Part shown: piece by piece, positions 2,187-24,344 of the stretch
Position numbering within the stretch: position 1 is the first letter of the stretch
How the letters are laid out: every line of letters begins with the position of its first letter
Virus record (IMG/VR): IMGVR_UViG_3300025853_000245
Location: 1 to 38,831 of that record
Direction: 5' to 3' (one strand)
From: a virus
Length of the DNA: 38,831 nucleotides
Notes under the pieces: generated by a model
Seen by the model: the letters and a program-made list of their open reading frames with translations, nothing else
Database searches by the model: none
Told to the model about the DNA's origin: nothing
Position numbers and translations under genes: made by a program

Positions 2187-5100
2187 TTATTGCTTAGGTA
2201 ATGATATGTCTACAATATCATCAGAAGTTGTGGTTCTTCGGTTAGGCTCTAAAAGCTTTCCAGTGATAACATCAAACCAAGCCTCGCCTTGTGCGTTTTG
2301 ATATTTTCTAATTTTTCTATCTTTACGAATTTCTTTCCAAGCCCTATCTCTGTATTGTTTTAGTTTTTCTCTAACTAGTTTAGCTTTTGTATCTTCAACG
2401 CCACTTACTTCAAAGTTAGGTGCTTTCTTGTATCGCTGAGTCTTTATTAAACTTTCTAGTGATCGTCTAAGAGTTTTACCTCCAAGCGTTACTTTAGACA
2501 TTTTATCCATCCACTCATCGTATAAAGATAGCTTAGTCTTAGGGTTCTTAAAGTCTCTTGTATCTATCTTTTCTTTTTCTGTTTTATTAAAATTATAACG
2601 ACCTCCTACGTCTTCTCTTATAGAAGCTAACTCTGTCATTAACTTATCACGCTTATCTTCTGCGAAATAAACAGGACTAAGAACACCCCAAGCACCTTCC
2701 CGTTGCCACTGCCTCTCAACCTTTTCTCCTAATAAATTACGTGCGTATAAACCCGGAAACACTCCAGCAGATCGTTCTAATAACTTATCCTTGAAACTGT
2801 TAGCTCTGGTTTGAAACTCTTGATTAACTTGATTTAGGTCTCTTAATAAAGACGGTGAAAACGAAGACAAGAAATCTACAGCAGCTGATTCCATTGCGTA
2901 GTTACCGGGCTTATAATCTAACAAGCTAAACACAGATTTTAAACCTCTAAGGAAATACTTATCTGAAAAGTTCGTAACAAAGGAAGCGTGCAAAACATTA
3001 TACCACTCTTGGTCGTCTGGCGTAAGTTCTTCCCCGGATAGCATCAGATAGTGAACCAAATCGGCGTGGACAGACATCATAGTAGAGAACGGCTCAAATC
3101 TGCTGTAATCTATTTTGTGACCTCCTATGTATAATGTATTAGGCCTCCACCCAGCTTCTCTTAACCTAGCTCTTTGGTCGTCACTTAAATGTGCTCCACT
3201 GCCTGTAATGTTTCCAGTGGCTATTCCAGTCATAATACCAGCACCCAATACTGTACTTGATATACCATTTGCTGCGGCCTCTGCTTGTTCTTCCGCTTTC
3301 TTAAGAGTTAATTCGTTTCTTTGTTCAAATAAAACTTCATTAGCATCCTCTATCTTTTTTATTTCCTCTTTAGGAATAACATCAGATTTTAAAGCTTCTG
3401 TATTTTTTAATATAGTTTGTTCAACTTCTTTTAGTTTTTTAGCTGAACGAGTACTACCCAATGTAGCTTTAGCCCAATTATAATGAGCTAACACTGGTAA
3501 ATTATCAACTGTCCATTGAGCAATAGCCGTAGGTGTTTTAATAAAAGGAACCAATAATCTAGAAACTATTTTTATAGGATCACGATAAGCATCTTCGCTT
3601 GATCTGCTCCACCTAGAAAAGTCTCTAGCTAATCTAGATATTACTTTATCTGCATACTCTTGTTGATACACCATCGAGAAACCCAACTCAGAAGCCTCGT
3701 GAAACTCTTCATTCTGTGCCCAAGTCAAAACATCACCATCTCTTTTTAAGGCTTCGCTCATTCTCTTTTTAGTAAACTGATCAAGTGCCTTACCTTCTAA
3801 ACCTTTAAGTAATCCTTCTTGCATAGCTTGTGAACGCAAAGCTCTCATAGTACCCATAAATACAAAAGGTTGATCGAAAAGTCCCATCACTCTAAAACTG
3901 ACAGAAAACAATGGGTCTAGCATTTTACCTACAGCTGTTGTAGGTTCTCCTTCTACTGTTTCTTCTAAAAACTTCCTGAGTAGTCCTCGGTTTCTGTCGC
4001 TGTCTACTCCGTACTTATTAACCATTCTTTGTAGTTGGTCTTTGTTTTTAAAGTTTAATTTGATTGGACCTTTCTTTAATGCTTCTGTTTCTTGTTTAGC
4101 TGTCTTTTGAATTAAATCTTCTTCGTGTCTTCTAAAAGCTTTAGCGTTAAAAGCTCCGTGTCCGTTTTGTTTCCAAGTGGCTTTTAATATGGTTAACATA
4201 TCCCCCCAGTTATTAAAGTATTCACTAGTTGCCTTTAGTTCTTGCAAAGCTAGTTTCATCGCACTTACTTCTGGACCGTATACAGCGTCGCCTTGTGCTT
4301 GCCTAATCTTTATTTCGTTGTACTTCTTGAGCATCTGTTTAAATGGTAGATACCCCATATTAAACGAAGCGGATAAAAATCCTACAGTCCAAGTTCTAAT
4401 ACTAGCAAGCATAGCGTTTAACCTAAACTTCTCACCAGTTCTTAATAACAACTCAAATGTGCCCATTTCCTCCATACCGAAAGCATCCATCTTGCTTAAT
4501 GATTTTAAGAACTGAACAACAAATTCGTTATATGCAGCAGCTTCTTCTTCTTTTAACTTGTCAGTTAATACTTTCCTAGCTGCTCGTGCTTGGTCTTTTA
4601 ATCGCTTAATATCAGCAGGTACAGTCTGGGCTTTCTTAGCTGACGCACTTAAGTACTCTCTGATCTCAGCTATAGATTTATCTGACATCTCTTCAAGCTC
4701 TTCTATGGTATGCTTTAAAGAATACTTTTGATATATCTCTTTTGATATAAAGTTTCCTAATATACGTTCACGCATAGCTGATATACTATTCCCCAGCTCT
4801 ACACGTATCATGTCTACCAGCACTTGTTTTTCGTTCGGGCTTAAGTTAGTAATTCTTTTTGATATATCAGTTATTACATCTTCAACTAATTCTTTTTCCG
4901 TGCCTCCTTTAACTGCTTGTTTTATTTTAGCAGTCAAGCCTTCTACTTCTTCGGATAAAACTTTCTGTATCATTTTATCACGCTGTGGCATAGATTCTAA
5001 AAACCGTTTACCAAATGCACCCTCTTTAAGTTCGTTTAAAATCCTTGTAGCTTCTGCGGCTTTTTGTGGGTCTAAGTTTTTAGCTTCGCTTATGTCTTTA

Positions 5101-8100
5101 ATTAAAACATCAATAGACTCTTTATATTTCTCTGGGTTATTAAGTATATCTTGTAAGTTATCTAATGTTTGATTTACTTTCTTAACGATTGGTTTACTAA
5201 CTTGTACAGCATCTGTGAGGTTTTTAGTAAGCCTCTGAGAAAACATATCTAACGCTGCTTTATTAGTGCCTTTATTTAAACGTAATGTTTTTAATACTTG
5301 GTTGGATATTCTTTCTTTGTACTTCCCCCATATTGTATCAATCGCATCGTCTACAGTGAGTCCGAACTCTTTATCGATTATCGATCTAAGGTCGCCTGTA
5401 TTGGCTAACTCGTCAGCGTTGCTCAGTTCTTTCTTTAAGGCTTTTAGTATATTATCGTTTGTTAGCTCTCCGCTTTTTATTCCGTCTATTAAACTTAATA
5501 ACCTATCTATTGATTCGAATTGTTTTTGAACAGCGGGTTTATATTTAATAGGTTTCCTAAAATTCATCTTAGAATTACCTTTAAAACTAACAAGAAGCTT
5601 ACCAGATAAATTACCAGCCTTAGCTCGTAAATCTATCATCTTTCTGTACTTGATTAAGTCTTCTTCTAAGTTAAGTACATCTCCTTTTATACCCTCAAAT
5701 TGTCCTCGTAAATCTTTCGTTATACCTTTTTCAAGGTCTACATCAAACTCCGATAACCGCTCAACCAATCCATTTATTTTAGGATTCATTGTTTTATCTA
5801 GTTCTACATTTAATCGAACTAATCGGTTTACTTGATCTGGTAGGTCTTGTCCTTTATTTATGTAGTCTTCAATTTGATCTTCTGCAAACTTCGGTACACG
5901 TTTTCCGGTAATCCCGAAAGCCTCTTCACCAGTTTCCCTAGGTAGACGCATCTCAGCGATCTCACCAACACGACTAACGATGTTATCAGCTAAGTCTGTG
6001 CTTACTCCTTTACCTAATAAGTTTTTAACTGTGTTAACAATCTTTTCCCACAGCGTCATCTTAGGGGTATACTGAATACCTTTTAATGCTTGCTGTAATT
6101 TAACGTCAGTAAAAGCAAAAGACATAAACTCTCCGGGATTACTGATCCAATATAAGTCTGAGTCTGCACCTGCTTTTATAATATCATCACGCATAGCATC
6201 TGCTTTTTTAAACATGCGGAAAACTTCTGCTACAGGTTTAGGTATTCCTTTTTGTTTCAGCATACCATCAACCGCTTTTGCTCTAGCTGCTATGTCGTTT
6301 AAATCTATTTTATTAAATACATTAGCATCAAAGTGCTTGTATACATTGTCTACAGTTACAGCGTGGGTAGTCTCGTGTAATAACGTATATACAGGGTTTC
6401 TTTGTACTACGTTTGAGTTAATATCTAACACCACCCGTTTACCTGCTTGATCAAAGAAAGCTTCAGATTCTTCAAAACCTTTAGGTATCTTACCAGCAAA
6501 AGCCCTTTCTTCTATTTTAAAATCTATTCCCGTGTCTTTACCTAGGGCTAATAATTTATCTACAACATTACTATATTCTCCAAGCTCTCCAGCAGATAAA
6601 TCTTTTAAATCTTGCAAGGCTGCACGTAAAGTAACAGGAGCTGCTGTTTGTTGTTTTGCTACTACTTTTTCAAGCAATACAGAATCCCTGAAAGAATCCG
6701 AAACGGACTGTTTAACACCAAGTGTAGTATCTATAGCTTCTCTACCTGCTCTTATAGGAAACACGCCTTTGACTCCTTCAAGCGTACCAACTCGTTCAGC
6801 TATTTTAGCAGCAGCTGTGTCACCTACAATAAACGGCATCTTCTCAATCGAGTCGGTAACAACAGCTCTTTTAAAAGTAGAAGCACCTATACCAAGTGAG
6901 AAATCAGGATCAACAGACTTGATCAGATCGTTTATATCATTAGTAGATAACTCACCGACAGAACCGTCTGCTCTTGGTCCAGTAAACACATCATCTTCAA
7001 AGGAATACTTATAGTCGTCTAAATTTAAAGCAGCTTCTCTAGCTTGCTCAGGTATCGCGATTTTAGCACTGATAGTTTGTTCTTCCGACCCGTATTTAAA
7101 AGCTTTTGAAAGTCTGTCTTTAACTAAGTTTCTTTCACCTGTTGCTAAATATTCTATATCTTTCTGGAAGTCCTGCCCCCACTTGTAGCCTTTAGGTAAT
7201 CCCATAGCTGCCATTTGGTCTGCTTGTTCACCGCCTACAGGAGCAAAGTGTTTGGTAGTTTTATTTTTTAATGCACTACTAAACATAGTACCTAATGTCC
7301 TTTGTACATTTATAAAAGATAAATTTTTAGGTATATATACTTTATCAGTGTTGTGTGCATATTGAAGAGCTACTTGATATATTTTTCCCCCTTGCCCAGA
7401 TCGACCTGTTTTTAAAGCACCTACTTCTACTAATTCTTTATTTCCTAAATCTAGTGTTATTAAATCCTTAACTTCATTTAGTGTTTTACTTAAAAACTCT
7501 TGATCGTGTACTACGACAGAAGTCCTGTAGAACGGTGTACCTTTTTCTAACCCGTATTGACCTTGCTCCGCTTTTAAAGGAGCAGTGATGTCAGTGTCTA
7601 CATTTTCTGTGTCAATTATATCAAAGTGCCTCGCATCCTCTACCTTCCTGCCTGGAATTGTTTTAGGGATAACTTTACCTGCTCTAGGTGCGATTGTTTC
7701 TGAAAGTGTTCCGAAGTCCGTGCTATCAATTACAGGAGTTTTAAATAGTTCCTCAGTCTCCGACAACCCAGACCAAACACTTGTTTCTGGCGTTTCTACT
7801 CCTTTTATAACATCCAGCTGCCTTAATTCCTCCGCAGGTACATTATCCACCTTATCATCTATGGGTCGTATGTTAGTAAGTATTTCTTCCTTTAACGCAG
7901 TCTCTTCATCTAAACTTTCTTTTAATTGTTTAAGTGCAGCCGTTGCGTCCCCTTTACCTTCCGAAGCTCTTTTAACAGCTCTTAAAGCCTTAGCACGTTT
8001 AAAGTACATCCTTATATATTTGGCGGTAGGAAATACGAAATTAACACCACCACCTATAACTGCCCCTTCGAATGTGTTTGTTAATCTTTTATAAAGAGCT

Positions 8101-8738
8101 TCTTCTGCTTCTACATCATCAACATCTGTTGTTAGAAAATCAGCTACTGCACCTTTGAGTGCACCCTCTCCAGCTATTCTACCAACCGCTAAAGCTTTCC
8201 TACCTTTTTCTGTCTTACCGATTAATTTAATAACATCATCTGCTTTAGAAGAAATCTTAGTAGTTGTTGAAAATGTTTTAAGTACTGACTTAACCACGCC
8301 TCCCGGTCCTGCAAAAGCCGTAACCCAACTACCCATCTCAGCTGCTATTTCTTCAACGGCGTTCTCAGGTTTACCTAACCACTCTTCTTCCCAGTTAACT
8401 CGTTCGGTTATCGGGGTCACCCCCAAAGCGTTTGTAACGTCATTAACTGTATTAACTAAATCTTCAGCTGATCTTACACCTGCTCTAGCTACAGCTCTAC
8501 CAGCCGTACCTACATCCGCTTGTTTAATATCTTGTAAATTTAATAACGTCCTTACTGCGGGCCCTGCTGCCCATTTAGTAAACTGAGACCAGTAAGAATC
8601 TTCGGGTTCATCTTCAGGTACATCAGGAGTAGGAGGCGGCGGTATCTCAGCAACAGTTGTCGGTTGTAACCACTCAAGTTGTTCCTCTTCAGGCATTGAA
8701 GGTTTTAACCAATCAGGAAGCTCTTCTTCTGCAGCCAT
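2187..8738 (-). CDS. Giant internal virion (ejection) protein at gp16 position, with metallopeptidase motif
   Basis: 2183 residues against 1318 in T7 gp16, in the position of the last internal virion protein before the fibres. T7 gp16 is ejected first and helps carry DNA across the cell envelope. The N-terminus is acidic with a proline run (about 31-48). There is an HExxH motif, LLHETTHAV (H788, E789, H792), with a later NPGEFMSF (E870) that could be a third zinc ligand: the signature of zincin peptidases found in phage polyvalent proteins. Long charged helical regions fill about 950-1500. Near 1825-1885 a hydrophobic Gly-rich stretch and GWRPNTLYIGG ... YSRFEPF resemble the LPD38-type region of large ejection proteins. 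I did not see the lytic transglycosylase signature of T7 gp16. The ejection role rests on position and size; peptidase activity is inferred. Confidence 0.85.
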   Translation of the reverse strand: MAAEEELPDWLKPSMPEEEQLEWLQPTTVAEIPPPPTPDVPEDEPEDSYWSQFTKWAAGPAVRTLLNLQDIKQADVGTAGRAVARAGVRSAEDLVNTVNDVTNALGVTPITERVNWEEEWLGKPENAVEEIAAEMGSWVTAFAGPGGVVKSVLKTFSTTTKISSKADDVIKLIGKTEKGRKALAVGRIAGEGALKGAVADFLTTDVDDVEAEEALYKRLTNTFEGAVIGGGVNFVFPTAKYIRMYFKRAKALRAVKRASEGKGDATAALKQLKESLDEETALKEEILTNIRPIDDKVDNVPAEELRQLDVIKGVETPETSVWSGLSETEELFKTPVIDSTDFGTLSETIAPRAGKVIPKTIPGRKVEDARHFDIIDTENVDTDITAPLKAEQGQYGLEKGTPFYRTSVVVHDQEFLSKTLNEVKDLITLDLGNKELVEVGALKTGRSGQGGKIYQVALQYAHNTDKVYIPKNLSFINVQRTLGTMFSSALKNKTTKHFAPVGGEQADQMAAMGLPKGYKWGQDFQKDIEYLATGERNLVKDRLSKAFKYGSEEQTISAKIAIPEQAREAALNLDDYKYSFEDDVFTGPRADGSVGELSTNDINDLIKSVDPDFSLGIGASTFKRAVVTDSIEKMPFIVGDTAAAKIAERVGTLEGVKGVFPIRAGREAIDTTLGVKQSVSDSFRDSVLLEKVVAKQQTAAPVTLRAALQDLKDLSAGELGEYSNVVDKLLALGKDTGIDFKIEERAFAGKIPKGFEESEAFFDQAGKRVVLDINSNVVQRNPVYTLLHETTHAVTVDNVYKHFDANVFNKIDLNDIAARAKAVDGMLKQKGIPKPVAEVFRMFKKADAMRDDIIKAGADSDLYWISNPGEFMSFAFTDVKLQQALKGIQYTPKMTLWEKIVNTVKNLLGKGVSTDLADNIVSRVGEIAEMRLPRETGEEAFGITGKRVPKFAEDQIEDYINKGQDLPDQVNRLVRLNVELDKTMNPKINGLVERLSEFDVDLEKGITKDLRGQFEGIKGDVLNLEEDLIKYRKMIDLRAKAGNLSGKLLVSFKGNSKMNFRKPIKYKPAVQKQFESIDRLLSLIDGIKSGELTNDNILKALKKELSNADELANTGDLRSIIDKEFGLTVDDAIDTIWGKYKERISNQVLKTLRLNKGTNKAALDMFSQRLTKNLTDAVQVSKPIVKKVNQTLDNLQDILNNPEKYKESIDVLIKDISEAKNLDPQKAAEATRILNELKEGAFGKRFLESMPQRDKMIQKVLSEEVEGLTAKIKQAVKGGTEKELVEDVITDISKRITNLSPNEKQVLVDMIRVELGNSISAMRERILGNFISKEIYQKYSLKHTIEELEEMSDKSIAEIREYLSASAKKAQTVPADIKRLKDQARAARKVLTDKLKEEEAAAYNEFVVQFLKSLSKMDAFGMEEMGTFELLLRTGEKFRLNAMLASIRTWTVGFLSASFNMGYLPFKQMLKKYNEIKIRQAQGDAVYGPEVSAMKLALQELKATSEYFNNWGDMLTILKATWKQNGHGAFNAKAFRRHEEDLIQKTAKQETEALKKGPIKLNFKNKDQLQRMVNKYGVDSDRNRGLLRKFLEETVEGEPTTAVGKMLDPLFSVSFRVMGLFDQPFVFMGTMRALRSQAMQEGLLKGLEGKALDQFTKKRMSEALKRDGDVLTWAQNEEFHEASELGFSMVYQQEYADKVISRLARDFSRWSRSSEDAYRDPIKIVSRLLVPFIKTPTAIAQWTVDNLPVLAHYNWAKATLGSTRSAKKLKEVEQTILKNTEALKSDVIPKEEIKKIEDANEVLFEQRNELTLKKAEEQAEAAANGISSTVLGAGIMTGIATGNITGSGAHLSDDQRARLREAGWRPNTLYIGGHKIDYSRFEPFSTMMSVHADLVHYLMLSGEELTPDDQEWYNVLHASFVTNFSDKYFLRGLKSVFSLLDYKPGNYAMESAAVDFLSSFSPSLLRDLNQVNQEFQTRANSFKDKLLERSAGVFPGLYARNLLGEKVERQWQREGAWGVLSPVYFAEDKRDKLMTELASIREDVGGRYNFNKTEKEKIDTRDFKNPKTKLSLYDEWMDKMSKVTLGGKTLRRSLESLIKTQRYKKAPNFEVSGVEDTKAKLVREKLKQYRDRAWKEIRKDRKIRKYQNAQGEAWFDVITGKLLEPNRRTTTSDDIVDISLPKQ

Positions 8739-8739
8739 C

Positions 8740-11034
8740 TTATCTGTTTTTGTTTCTAAGTATTTTCTCTTGTTCTTCCTTAAAAAACTTTAAGTGCTCT
8801 TCTTTAGATATACCGAACTTTGTATTGTATAAGTTGAACATAGGGAAGTCTTCTATATCCAAACTGGCGGGTGATTCATTATAGATTTTTAATTCTTTGT
8901 AAACTTGAGTTGCATCCTCTATCAACATCTCCGCACTTTCGTACATAGGTGTGTATCTAAAATCTAAGTCCACAGCCATATCAGGTGAAATTTCTCTAGG
9001 ATGTCTGAAACCATAGAACTCTCTGATAGTTTGTAAACCTTCTTTTAACGTGCTGCTGTCTTTATATTCTTCTTTTAATAGCTCCCGCTCGACAAGTTCC
9101 GCCTTTTCAAACGCTTGTAATCTACCTTCTAATGTTGTTGGAAGTTCAGAGGCTAATAATTCGTACTTCCCTATTTTCTTCGGGAATTGTTTAGTGAAAT
9201 CTGTAAGCCAACTAGTTAATACATCTTCTATGTTTTCCTGTGCTTCCTCTAGGTCCGGTATAGTTGGAAGCTCATATACTTCTCCTGCTTTTATATCTTC
9301 CTTTATTGCCCTCAACTTCCCGTCGAACCACTGTTTTTCAACTTTTTTATAATCCCTCCATCTGTCGGTTATATTAGATATAACTTTTGGGATTTGTTTT
9401 ATAATCTTATCGTCCCTTTCTGGGTCTTCCTTTAAAGATGTTTGTAACTTTCTTAACTCAGCCATGTATTCATCTTGAAAAGGTTCAATACCTGTCTCTT
9501 TATATTGCTTTATAGTATCAGCTGACTCGCCCTCAAAAACGTCCATCTCCACTATATTTTTCAAAGCGTTCTCAAACCCTCTTTCGTAGTTCTTGTAAGT
9601 TTCTGTTTTCTCAAACCACAGATTTGATTTAGCTTCTCGACTAAGAGCGATAGCGTCGGCCTTTACTCTAGGGTCTGTTATCTTTTTACTAGCAAGTAAT
9701 TCGTTAATATTGGTTTCTGGATTCAAAGCTAACTCAGCCTCTACTTCTTCTAAAGCTCCTTGCATCTCAGCTCTAGACATAACAGCATTTGATTTAGCTA
9801 CTAAGTCTATTGTGAAACGTTGTATAGAACCCGTTGCGGCGTTCCAAGCTTCTTTATCTTTATCGTTATCTCTGTACTTTAAACCTTCTAAACTTAACGC
9901 GTTTACGTCTTGGCTTTGCATTAACTGCTGTGCCCTAGTTCTTGCGTATGTCTCATCCCACCCAGCGTCCAGTAAAAACTCTACGACTGAATCTAACTGC
10001 ATCTGGTTTATTTGTTCTCTTCTTTCTGGGTTTTTGTCGTTTGATAAACCACCCATAACAGCAGAAGCAGCTGGCATATATAAGTTAGTTATTTCTCGAC
10101 TGCGATCCCCAGCATCTCTCTTACTAGCTTCTTGAGCAGCTTGTATTCTATCCCTTAAAGGGGTGAATTGCCTAACCGCTTCCTTAGAACCGAACACTGG
10201 TTTACCGTTTATCCGTATAGTTTTTATAGAGTCCAACACTTTCTCAGCGTCGTCGTATCTATCTAAGGCATGTAACTGACCAACTACGCCAGCGTATCCA
10301 TCTATTAATAATTTGTTTCTTGTTATCTTATCTATACCAGACTCAGTAAATAGTTCTTCATAATTAAGAGCGATGTCTGCTAATATAGATGTATCAAAAC
10401 CTTTATCACGAGTAGCTGCTGTTAAATTCACAGCCAACTCATCTTGTAATCCTTGTTGTATTACTTGTTGTTTTTGTTCCTCATATTGAAGAGCTAATTT
10501 GTTTTTATACGGAGTAGTAACATAATCCCACAAAGCCTTACCAGCCGTACTGTTTGCTACACCCTCTCCTACTTGGCTTACTAAACTGTTCCATTCTTCT
10601 TGAAAGGTCTCGTCAACGCCTTGTAGGAAAGTAGCTCTATCTTTATAAGTCTCGGCGTTTACTAAATCAGCTTCTTTTGATTGGAGGCTAGGCAGCATCG
10701 TGTTATTGATGTGTCTCTTTAACAACGCATCTCTGTATGCTCTGTCTCTATTGGTTGTAGCTAACGGACTAAAGCCGTCTACATCTTTCTGTTTCTTTAA
10801 CTCAGCTATAACATTCTGTTCTTCTACTAACTGAGCTTGCTCAATACCGATCTGTTTCTGAGTATCCGCTAATTGACCGTAGCTTTTTGCTACACCCATA
10901 AACGCATTTATTGAATCAGCTAAATCTAATGCTTTACTTCTGGGTACAGGAACAGCAGCAGCACGACGTTGTCCTACTGAGTATTGACCTAAACCGCCAA
11001 CTGTTGGTTGTATACCGGGGACTTCTCTTGTCAT
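8740..11034 (-). CDS. Internal virion protein, gp15 position
   Basis: 764 residues, close to T7 gp15 (747). The gene lies in the conserved order between the gp14-like and gp16-like genes, overlapping the first by 4 nt (ATGA) and ending 1 nt before the second. In T7, gp15 is part of the internal core stacked on the portal and forms the periplasmic tunnel section during DNA ejection. The sequence is mostly charged helix, without membrane segments or motifs I can name. The N-terminal 30 residues are Gly/Arg-rich (MTREVPGIQPTVGGLGQYSV). Identification is by order, length and helical character rather than by a motif. Confidence 0.8.
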   Translation of the reverse strand: MTREVPGIQPTVGGLGQYSVGQRRAAAVPVPRSKALDLADSINAFMGVAKSYGQLADTQKQIGIEQAQLVEEQNVIAELKKQKDVDGFSPLATTNRDRAYRDALLKRHINNTMLPSLQSKEADLVNAETYKDRATFLQGVDETFQEEWNSLVSQVGEGVANSTAGKALWDYVTTPYKNKLALQYEEQKQQVIQQGLQDELAVNLTAATRDKGFDTSILADIALNYEELFTESGIDKITRNKLLIDGYAGVVGQLHALDRYDDAEKVLDSIKTIRINGKPVFGSKEAVRQFTPLRDRIQAAQEASKRDAGDRSREITNLYMPAASAVMGGLSNDKNPERREQINQMQLDSVVEFLLDAGWDETYARTRAQQLMQSQDVNALSLEGLKYRDNDKDKEAWNAATGSIQRFTIDLVAKSNAVMSRAEMQGALEEVEAELALNPETNINELLASKKITDPRVKADAIALSREAKSNLWFEKTETYKNYERGFENALKNIVEMDVFEGESADTIKQYKETGIEPFQDEYMAELRKLQTSLKEDPERDDKIIKQIPKVISNITDRWRDYKKVEKQWFDGKLRAIKEDIKAGEVYELPTIPDLEEAQENIEDVLTSWLTDFTKQFPKKIGKYELLASELPTTLEGRLQAFEKAELVERELLKEEYKDSSTLKEGLQTIREFYGFRHPREISPDMAVDLDFRYTPMYESAEMLIEDATQVYKELKIYNESPASLDIEDFPMFNLYNTKFGISKEEHLKFFKEEQEKILRNKNR

Positions 11035-11607: not shown

Positions 11608-12054
11608 TTACTTCCTCTCTAATATAAATGACAGATAGCCTTCGTACTGACAATCGCTAAACTCTGCACCTAACCACTCCAACCATTTAATACTCAACTT
11701 GTTACTACGCATCACATAGTTCGTCAGATAATCAAACCCATCTAACAGTCCCTCCATCCGTTCCCGTGAGTGTTTCAAAAAGAACTTCTTGATCCTTGGT
11801 AATCTTCTAGTACCTAATAACCAAGCACTTCCGATATTAGTACCTTCGATAGGAGCTACACCAAAAGAACAGTATAAGTTGTTCATCTCGTCCTTTACAC
11901 TGTAACACTTTGTACTACAAGCGTAAGACATCATAACAGCATCTTTCGGGTGGTGCATAAGTCCGAGTATCTCTAACATGTCATCCTCCCGCAAGTCGTC
12001 GTACAGATCAACTGCATCCATATCACCGTGTGCTTCATCTATCCTAAGCTCCAT
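11608..12054 (-). CDS. Internal virion protein A (gp13-like, DUF2833 type, acetyltransferase-like fold)
   Basis: This protein is at the T7 gp13 position, between tail tube B and gp14. The FGVAPIEG ... SAWLLGTRRL segment, the KKFFLKHSRE helix and KWLEWLGAEF match the DUF2833 pattern, whose fold is related to GNAT acetyltransferases. Family members are needed for assembly of the internal core; enzyme activity is not established. The open frame extends up to a TTG at 12087 (159 residues), but I prefer the ATG at 12052-12054 (MELRIDEAHG, 148 residues). It overlaps the tail tube B stop by only 11 nt and is preceded by a purine-rich stretch. The start remains uncertain. Confidence 0.8.
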   Translation of the reverse strand: MELRIDEAHGDMDAVDLYDDLREDDMLEILGLMHHPKDAVMMSYACSTKCYSVKDEMNNLYCSFGVAPIEGTNIGSAWLLGTRRLPRIKKFFLKHSRERMEGLLDGFDYLTNYVMRSNKLSIKWLEWLGAEFSDCQYEGYLSFILERK

Positions 12055-15000
12055 ATCTTCTACTACGTGATATAACCATCGATTCAAACTCTGCCGCTAA
12101 TAGCTTAACTGGTAAAGCAGAATCACTAACAACTTCTATCTTTGCGTCGTTTGGTTGGCACTGAATAGGAAAGCGGAAGTGACCGTCCTGTGGGGTAAAA
12201 GCATTAAGTGTTAAGTTAGCACCGAGGCTGTCAGGATTGAATGCGTAGCTATACTTATCTCTGTACTTTGGAGTTACTTCAACAGTGAAGTGTCCGGTGT
12301 CTGCGTAGTTTATACTACCGTTACGAATCGTTTGGTAGGTGTAATCAGATGCACTTCTTCCGCCACGCTCTGTAGGTTGTTTAAGTGATTGATCGGAGAA
12401 CCTGTACAACATATTGTACGGGATACCAGCTACGAAATCAGTAGATGTAAGATCACCACCAACCGTACCCGCTGTAGATGATGTCCTAGTAAATATCACT
12501 TTATTACCAGCTTTTGTATAGACTACTACATCTGTAGGATCGTACTTAAAGTCGCTTATTGTAGTAGTCTTAGAAGCAGCGTCGTAGCTAGTAGTTAATG
12601 TACTGCCATCCACTTTACTATCCAAATACAATGTATAATCTAAACCTTCGTCTGTTATACCGTCTTCAAGTGTAAGCTTCTCTAAGTGTAACCCATCAGT
12701 GTCTGCTGTGATTAAGTGCAAGTTACTGTCGATAAAGTCAAACCCTCGGATGTCACGACCAAAGGTGAACTTCATCCAAGCACTTTGTATCTTTTCTTTG
12801 TTCGACCAGAAGTACTTATATACAAACAATGTCTTAGCATCTTCTGTCGTACTCATGACAATAGTATTCTCTGCTTGAGAACCTACAATCTTTTGTACGT
12901 CTGATGTAATATACTTCGGTACTTGCTGTGTTATTTCTTCAGCATTAAATGTCTCAGTATTGTTATCTACAAAGTATTCGTATACTCCCTCAAAGTCATT
13001 CCGTTTAAATGGGAAGTATATATAGTTACCCAGTGCTACTGGTTGTATACCATCTGATAGATCGTACTCAGTAACAGGAGATATAGCTACCGTCTTAGGT
13101 GATAACACATCTGCTCCACGAAGTACGAACTGTGACCCTTGACTGAATAACATCAGCTTCTCTTGGAATGGTACAGCGTGTTCAAGGATCGCTACCTTTG
13201 TGTGACTTAATCCTACATCGATAACTGCACTGTCTAGTAACTGCTGTGTGGTAGTACGGAAGAAGTTAAAGTATTCATCAGCTTCACTAAAGATAATGTT
13301 GCTGTCTGTAAGTATACCTAAGCGGTTCTTAAAGAAGAATATATCTCGTATCTGTTTACCGACGAATGATGGGAATGGATTGGTGTTGTCGTCCCCTGCT
13401 TGTCTAGTTGACCAACCTCCTCGTGCGTTTGTTTCAGTAGGGCCGTAGTAGAATGTACCCAACTTCCAAGTTAAATAACCGACTGTAGCTGCTGTATCTT
13501 TTGTCTCGTCTACCTCAGTCCATACATCCTCCCAATCAGTTCCTACACCCGGCTCCGTATCAGCAGCTGCTCTGTTTTCTACATCTAACCTATAGTAGTT
13601 ACTGTTGTGCTTTATATATAACACATCGTTAGGAGTAGATAATCTAAAGTCTGTTATTGTAGTGTTATTAAAATAAGGCGTAAGAGTTACAGGCATTGTA
13701 TCAGTTGTTAACAATGTATCTATACCTTCTAACGCACTTGTTTCTGATTCGTCTTGTAAATAACCAACTGTTTCTATCCAGCTACCTTCCCCGAAATTAG
13801 TCTTATCTTTAGTAGAAAACCGTACATAGTAGTCGTCTTGGTCTATGTCTGCATCACCTATTACTTTAACAGGCCCGAATCCATTAAAACATTTAACTGG
13901 TAATTCAGTAATGCTATTTACTTCTCTGTATACAACACCTAACGCTTGATCCGCTAGACCGTCTTCTACTCGTATATTGAATGGACCTTCTGTGCTTGTA
14001 AGTTTAATAACAGAACCTTCCAGAGTGGCCTCAAATCCTCCATCAGTAAATGATACAGTTGTTATCTGTACAGGGTCAGTGCTAACATTAGTTGAAGAGT
14101 TAAAGGTGGCGGGAGGTACGTAGTAATCTCTATCTCCTGTTTTTATTTCCTCCCATCCTTGCCACTTATTAAAAACGTCCTGTGGTTTTGCTCTCCTATA
14201 TGCTTTATACTGTAAAGATACAGGATTAGATGGATTAAAGCCGCTGCCTTTCTTTATGTTCCTAGCAGCTGTTATAACACCTTTAGTTACTATTAACTCA
14301 GCTGAAGCAGTAGCAGCTCCTGACTGTATGATATTAACTTGTAGTTTTACTTGGTACTCAGTCTTAACTTTCCTTGTACTACTAGTAAAGGTTCTAATAC
14401 TATTACCACTCCTCTTAACGGGTTCTGTTGTTTCTAAAGTATAAGTACCAGTAGAGTGTCCGCCTAACCAGCCGTCCCCTGTAGCAGATGGTCCCGAATT
14501 TATAGTAATAGCAGATACACCTGAGTTTGTATTAACTACGCCTTCATTTATACAGTCATACAAATCTCTAGCTATAAAAGCTGTATCAGCGTGGTTGCCT
14601 TTAGGTTCTACATTAGCAGGTCCGCTTATATAAGTAGCAGGTTGAACAGATGTATTACCGTGACTCGTGCTGCTGTAATCGTGATGCTGTCCTTGTAACG
14701 CTGTAGCTAAAGGTACTAACTTATCGTCTACATATATGGTGTAAGCCTTCTCGTAGTCTCCTAACTTAACAACAATAAGTGCTTCATCAGCAGGTGGTGT
14801 GGACTTTTGTTCAGCAGCTTCGCTCCTTTGTATAACTCTGTTTTTATTAACAAGGAATGTATAGTCAGCTACCGTCAACGCTCGTAAGTCGGCTAAAGGA
14901 TTAGCTACACCACCTAACGATGCCTGTCCTCCTAAGCTCAGATAACTGTTAGCTATAGAAGTTACAGCTACTGATACGTTTGTACCGTCCCCTACATTAA

Positions 15001-23782: not shown

Positions 23783-23986
23783 TTACTGTACTTGTTTAGT
23801 TACTATATCTTGTTCTAGTTGGTCGTCGTAAGTCTGTTGTAAATAATTAATTACACTTCTTTGTCCTACCTTATACCATACCTCACGTTCTGTGTCTGTC
23901 AACAGCGGACATTTATCAGGGAATAGTTTGTCAAGTTTATTGATTAGCTCCTGAGACAGAGCGGGTAATACTATTTCTTCATTCAT
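23783..23986 (-). CDS. Hypothetical small acidic protein
   Basis: 67 residues, helical and acidic (LPALSQELINKLDKLFPDKC ... TEREVWYKVGQRSVINYLQQ). It overlaps the MazG-like gene stop by 8 nt and ends 4 nt before the proline-rich gene. Small proteins with a PDKCPLLTDTEREVWYKVGQ-type centre recur in this position in marine podoviruses, without a known function. No membrane segment or metal site beyond a single Cys is visible. Confidence 0.7.
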   Translation of the reverse strand: MNEEIVLPALSQELINKLDKLFPDKCPLLTDTEREVWYKVGQRSVINYLQQTYDDQLEQDIVTKQVQ

Positions 23987-24344
23987 CTCTATATCCTATA
24001 TCGTCCAGTTCCGACGGGAGCTTTCCCTCTTTAATCTTTTCTTCAGTCCAGCACCAAGCCGAAGCATTCCACAAGATAGCAGCCGCATGGTCTTCAGAGT
24101 TGTCCCCCTCAGCCAGCCCCAACAAATGTCTAAACATCGAGTCATATAATCTACTTAAAGGGAAACCTCGTTTCCAGTTGTTGTCTCCGTAAAGCTTTCC
24201 GCCATCTTCAAATCTTTTTGCGAGACGGCGAATGGCGATTGGAGGAATAAGGCTGGGTCGTCCCCGTCCATCGTCCCCGTCACGCTTAGCCCCTGTTGAG
24301 AAATCTCTAGTATATCCTTGGTTTGGTAGTTCTTTGGTGTCCAT
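23979..24344 (-). CDS. MazG-like dATP/dGTP diphosphohydrolase N-terminal-type protein (DUF5664-like)
   Basis: 121 residues with the DUF5664/dGTP_diPhyd_N pattern: GRPSLIPPIAIRRLAKRFED (residues 29-48), GKLYGDNNWKRGF (49-61), then RLYDSMFRHLLGLAEGDNSE with the following DHAAAILWNASAW helix. Relatives in this all-alpha MazG-like superfamily remove pyrophosphate from (d)NTPs, with metal bound by acidic residues of the helices; phage members tune the nucleotide pool. Its first 63 codons are read in a second frame inside the 3' end of the exonuclease gene (24155-24344), an unusually long overlap. The strong family match shows this frame is real. The next gene overlaps it by 8 nt. The actual substrate is unknown. 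Confidence 0.82.
   Translation of the reverse strand: MDTKELPNQGYTRDFSTGAKRDGDDGRGRPSLIPPIAIRRLAKRFEDGGKLYGDNNWKRGFPLSRLYDSMFRHLLGLAEGDNSEDHAAAILWNASAWCWTEEKIKEGKLPSELDDIGYRDE

Follow-up and report, generated by a model that had tools for sequence, protein, structure and literature searches.

A zincin-type domain in the gp16-position ejection protein

The window analyzed here, i.e., the whole 38,831-nucleotide stretch of the IMG/VR virus record IMGVR_UViG_3300025853_000245, belongs to a marine T7-like phage whose giant gp16-position protein is probably injected together with the DNA. This carrier protein of 2183 amino acids (aa) is encoded by an open frame on the minus strand (2187..8738; all carrier features located below lie on the same strand), in a gene order of gp13-like, gp14-like, gp15-like and gp16-like genes, and its C-terminus matches the internal virion protein phrog_6651 (E 9e-20) as well as the protein called "internal virion protein D" in marine podoviruses. 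A predicted zincin peptidase domain, delimited with a profile of 68 homologues, occupies aa 688-939 (5922..6677). It contains the motif LLHETTHAV (aa 786-794), in which HETTH (aa 788-792; 6363..6377, read from 6377 to 6363) would provide the zinc ligands H788 and H792 and the general base E789. The predicted third ligand, E870 (6129..6131), belongs to the stretch NPGEFMSFAFTD (aa 867-878), which includes NPGEF (aa 867-871), and lies 78 residues after H792. An earlier note on this DNA had read a zinc metallopeptidase signature from these residues, with positions and a spacing that match exactly those found here. A HExxH motif arises by chance in about 1% of shuffles of the carrier, odds that are too weak taken alone, so that homology has to decide. 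The combination of HExxH and NPxEF at most 150 residues apart was found in 0 of 20,000 shuffles, the second pattern having been picked after the sequence had been viewed.

Judged by profile comparison, the domain is a homologue of the HExxH domain of the N4 virion RNA polymerase (vRNAP), and the family is thus already known. With tblastn, weak matches were obtained to proteins of the phiKMV group, the N4 group and Flavobacterium phage Fpv1, all with HExxH at the matched place. Profile-profile comparison with hhalign gave 95.8% (E 8e-9) against the metallopeptidase (MPTase) domain of N4 vRNAP, with the motifs in register, 96.5% (E 1e-9) against the phiKMV group (gp37) and 97.1% against the second-copy zincins described below, while controls did not exceed 1.2% and T7 gp16 reached 0.2%. 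A search with the family profile recovered phiKMV gp37 (E 2e-44), the vRNAP of phiCB2047-B (2e-30), Fpv1 (2e-25), RiverRider (3e-20) and aa 2143-2376 of N4 vRNAP (3e-14). Ejection proteins with solved structures were also found in the PDB (9sfn, 3e-40; 8vb2, 2e-15; 11fw, 1e-12; 23sg, 2e-10), and the matches in BFVD were again internal proteins of podoviruses, virion RNA polymerases and polyvalent proteins, besides one crAss-like protein whose name refers to a fusion with a zincin protease. Searched alone against Pfam, PHROG and NCBIfam, the domain gave weak matches, to the putative metallopeptidase DUF6782 (E 0.2) and to the virion RNA polymerase family phrog_2206 (E 3e-7), and no Pfam model covers this zincin family. 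A search of a plasmid collection returned no match, and a pattern search of a genome collection returned 77 matches, none of them a relative. T7 gp16 (L037) has a HERLH motif at aa 559, which, given the 0.2% in profile comparison, was taken as a probable chance occurrence.

Conservation and predicted fold

The 68-row alignment combined window-type relatives with phiKMV-like, N4-like and second-copy zincins. Conservation in this alignment is a stronger test than the shuffles: its only invariant columns are H788, E789, H792, T795 and E870; hence the three residues whose invariance the earlier note had proposed to check are conserved in all 68 homologues. Most of the phiKMV-like rows were retrieved with a pattern containing HEAVHAAT, so that HExxH is partly built in there and E870 is not; HExxH is also invariant among the 28 rows obtained without this search. 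Among loci retrieved by the whole protein or by the domain, aa 654-937 are about 50-67% identical, and the remainder of the carrier is mostly 22-29% identical or undetectable, LPD37 (see below) excepted where present; in one such comparison, the identity of the zincin stayed at 53-64%. When relatives are compared, the zincin shows a ratio of nonsynonymous to synonymous substitution rates (dN/dS) of 0.05-0.3, indicating purifying selection. The comparison with locus L025, which is 95% identical to the window in tail tubular protein A and 94% in terminase and just 22% in the gp16 C-terminus, indicates that the ejection genes are strongly variable within this phage group. The gp15- and gp16-position proteins are hypervariable relative to L022 and L025, phages with 95-97% identity to the window in tail tubular protein A.

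AlphaFold2 run on the 68-row alignment predicted a confident zincin-like fold, with a predicted local distance difference test (pLDDT) of 84.4 and a predicted template modelling score (pTM) of 0.80. In the model, a helix (residues 61-71) and three strands (82-85, 101-104 and 109-112) precede the HExxH helix (123-141), and E870, which is model residue 211, sits in a downstream helix (209-218). The helix with the downstream Glu, part of the zincin layout given in the earlier note, which had suggested a structure prediction, is present in the model. The closest structural neighbours were lethal factor chains (Z 6.8 across 159 residues, with a root-mean-square deviation of 4.5); PPEP-1, -2 and -3 came next (Z about 5), and all top neighbours are zincins; by sequence, the matches to lethal factor and PPEP are insignificant (E about 0.2). 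In the model, the strands come first, then the HExxH helix and then the helix with the Glu, an arrangement that appears to be shared with these M34-like peptidases; the window protein differs from them by having no toxin-like delivery parts. A candidate catalytic tyrosine, Y863 (6150..6152), was located in the alignment seven residues before E870. This position is occupied by Tyr in 45 of the 68 rows, including the marine rows, whether of one type or the other (27/27), and in 8/8 zincins of the second clade. Lethal factor and PPEP-1 have a catalytic Tyr at the same distance from their Glu ligand.

A module inserted between two conserved halves

The carrier can be divided into an N-terminal core common to cargo-less relatives (aa 1-338; 7725..8738), an inserted module comprising LPD37 and the zincin (about aa 322-951; 5886..7775) and a C-terminal core (aa 953-2183; 2187..5882). 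The reference for this division was the 1547-aa protein of locus L137, which matches the window at 51% identity over the N-terminal core (window aa 3-338, L137 aa 2-317) and at 71% over the C-terminal core (L137 aa 319-1547, 1231 columns). In its slot, L137 has a Pro/Glu-rich linker of about 35 residues, compared with about 630 residues of LPD37 and zincin in the window; L138 and L172 share the same empty layout at 37-42% identity. The LPD37 domain (aa 435-631; 6846..7436) was identified by Pfam (PF18853, E 4e-16), and this polyvalent-protein domain next to the zincin agrees with the polyvalent-protein setting invoked in the earlier note. A scan for LPD37 showed that the zincin is present in every LPD37 context found. 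The AlphaFold2 model of LPD37 and zincin together was poor outside the zincin (pLDDT 69.6, pTM 0.49), the structural matches of this model were weak (Z <5), and no function is claimed for LPD37. In L009, a GYF_2 domain (aa 339-383, E 6e-6) was found upstream of the zincin.

Shorter gp16-like proteins of 1142-1283 aa are encoded by the marine and freshwater podoviruses CRP-118, CRP-403, CRP-804, Eistla, HTVC121P, P-SSP7 and ctgrD200, and none of these seven proteins contains HExxH or matches the zincin profile. They align to two regions of the carrier, one at aa 79-279 and the other at about aa 1679-2138, which places the extra length of the carrier in between. The first of these regions is where short gp16-like proteins of Roseobacter and Pelagibacter phages align.

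To avoid choosing relatives by the zincin, these were retrieved with the gp13-like internal virion protein gene (11608..12087, minus strand; phrog_308, E 1e-25) as a neutral bait, yielding 49 loci with an open reading frame (ORF) at the gp16 position. At least 7 of the 49 carry a window-type zincin and at least 8 a divergent one (HELWH[SG]LS ... Yx6E), both counts being lower bounds since some ORFs run off the contig. An initial guess that the zincin is universal in the phage group, made from loci retrieved by the domain, was overturned by this survey. The second clade occupies the slot in L153, L139, L162, L163, L164, L166, L169 and L178, with the signature HELWH[SG]LS ... NYRF..xDEYFAE. It was matched by no Pfam model, and a Pfam search of the other slot cargoes gave no convincing family.

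Pairs of loci with similar flanks (identities given as N-/C-terminal side) differ in the content of the slot. L122 carries LPD37 and zincin and L123 is empty (65/86%). The counterpart in L133 holds another segment of 230 aa, of unrecognised kind (aa 424-652), which is missing from L123 (90/94%). Between L115 and L153 (86/80%), a zincin of clade 1 is exchanged for one of clade 2; in L019 the zincin is preceded by LPD37 and in L024 it stands alone (75/90%); and the segment of the second zincin is present in L031 and missing from L030 (96/87%). Furthermore, two zincins of different types, each with HExxH and a downstream Glu, coexist in one ejection protein in L021 (aa 453 and 746) and L031 (aa 490 and 1077).

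Comparison with known systems

A zincin MPTase has been named in N4 vRNAP and described as the commonest domain of polyvalent proteins, together with domain mosaicism in Helicobacter prophages (PMC5512222; Iyer et al., 2017), and HExxH was noted in domain C1 of N4 in a structure preprint (PMC12633501). The window domain resembles the N4-type MPTase in its profile homology, in HExxH on a helix followed by Glu on a downstream helix, in the three-stranded sheet with an N-terminal helix ahead of the HExxH helix that the window model also has, and in its setting, a giant virion protein with LPD domains alongside. Unlike in N4, the zincin of the window is borne by a T7-type gp16-position protein that has no RNA polymerase; close relatives may have this zincin, lack it or carry another in its place, and a Tyr that is missing from N4 stands seven residues before the Glu. 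phiKMV gp37 of the Krylovirinae (PDB 9sfn by sequence) occupies the same genomic slot, with HEAVH and the downstream Glu aligned, whereas the rest of the protein has no detectable alignment. It was called gp16-like, with no mention of a peptidase, in a review of ejection proteins (PMC8954989), and the main texts of PMC5512222, PMC12633501 and PMC8954989, as far as searched, contain no mention of a zincin in it. The record annotation of phiKMV gp37 (L036 7567-11580) is that of an "endolysin domain" protein and does not name a zincin. By profile search, the same domain is found in the tetrameric ejection protein gp48 (PDB 8vb2) and in gp10 (PDB 23sg), as named in the PDB entries.

T7 gp16 has an N-terminal transglycosylase. 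The carrier has the same place in gene order, after the gp14- and gp15-like genes, but homology to T7 gp16 is not detectable by sequence (hhalign of the carrier, best 1.8%, with strongly divergent sequences). A Pfam search of the carrier (E up to 1) gave no transglycosylase match, which is in line with the contrast to T7 drawn in the earlier note. The domain itself is known and sits here in a carrier of T7 type; the new part is the clean set of present, absent and replaced states, which the part of the literature searched does not describe for such proteins.

Proposed role of the probably injected, predicted peptidase

Homology, the invariant catalytic set, the predicted fold, purifying selection, and presence, absence and replacement among relatives were all established computationally. 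They make it probable that a zincin-type metallopeptidase (HExxH ... Y-x6-E) forms an exchangeable cargo, enclosed by the conserved N-terminal and C-terminal parts of the carrier, a T7-type ejection protein at the gp16 position. The zincin reading of the earlier note is thus supported by the profile homology to the N4 MPTase, the predicted fold and the invariant metal-site residues. Judging from gene position and from the N4 and phiKMV relatives, the carrier would be taken up into the head and leave it together with the genome by way of the tail. After passage, the cargo may refold and bind Zn2+; the invariance and the fold suggest H788, H792 and E870 as ligands, E789 acting as general base. 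Most likely the peptidase works once delivered: early in infection, it would cleave either a host protein or the polypeptide to which it belongs, in the latter case freeing a cargo such as LPD37. Some points weigh against this picture. The Z of 6.8 for lethal factor is below the safe value of the tool (Z 8), and Foldseek against the PDB gave no match below E 0.001, the zincin match coming from a second aligner. N4 and phiKMV lack the Tyr at the equivalent of position 863, and their sites may differ. Finally, dispensability was read from metagenomic contigs rather than from a knockout.

A host protein is the first choice as target, with about an even chance of being correct. Self-processing after delivery, in which the zincin would cut its own polypeptide in the cell and free LPD37 or separate the N- and C-terminal parts, ranks second and is rather unlikely. 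It is the function favoured for multidomain polypeptides by Iyer et al. (PMC5512222), it would fit the presence of a zincin wherever LPD37 was found, and the module takes the place of a Pro/Glu-rich linker in the cargo-less relative. However, several relatives, among them L024 and L115, carry the zincin without other recognised cargo, and a swap of clades beside near-identical flanks better fits changing external substrates than a fixed self-cleavage site. A candidate cleavage site at the N-terminal PPPP run was dropped, as a similar Pro run exists in cargo-less L137. The processing of ejection or core proteins while they are still in the head, raised in the earlier note as processing of core proteins, lost ground and appears very unlikely. 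Although P1 DdrB is cut before packaging (PMC5512222), N4 vRNAP is packaged unprocessed (PMC5512222), which counts against cutting at that stage, and close relatives retain both halves and make a full-length core without the peptidase. Since the domain is missing from phages whose cores are closely similar, the peptidase is probably not needed for assembly or ejection as such, and looks like cargo brought to the bacterium more than like a component of the injection machinery.

That the zincin is non-catalytic seems quite unlikely, and still less likely is an inactive fold that would serve the ejection apparatus as a structural element or for binding. The contact of N4 C1 with the RNA polymerase domain in the cryo-electron microscopy structure (PMC12633501) could be invoked for such a part. 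However, every metal-site residue is strictly invariant, the general base E789 included, and the domain is absent from close relatives, neither of which fits such a part. A fortuitous HExxH in a helical protein, for which its occurrence in about 1% of shuffles could be cited, is refuted by the invariance, the homology and the fold. The exchange of clades, the doubling and the strong purifying selection on the catalytic set suggest an active enzyme with a varying target. By extension, it is possible, at slightly less than an even chance, that the T7-type gp16-like proteins of this marine group have a cargo slot flanked by conserved halves, and that close relatives trade enzymes there, mainly peptidases, in the form of cassettes directed at different host or defence proteins during genome entry.

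Injected phage enzymes work ahead of any phage gene expression, and the role of this common zincin domain in injected phage proteins has been a standing question since 2017. In the natural pairs described above, the phage parts are nearly identical and the peptidase is there, missing or exchanged for another; these pairs make the role testable, and suggest that ejection proteins can take foreign protein domains at a fixed slot. Because these phages evidently assemble without the peptidase, an effect would be expected in host range or defence evasion.

Neighbouring genes

Next to the carrier gene, a gp15-position protein of 764 aa is encoded on the minus strand (8740..11034), for which family searches gave no match. 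Elsewhere in the window, a small protein (23979-24344) has a PHROG match to a dATP/dGTP pyrophosphohydrolase (MazG-like; E 2e-15).
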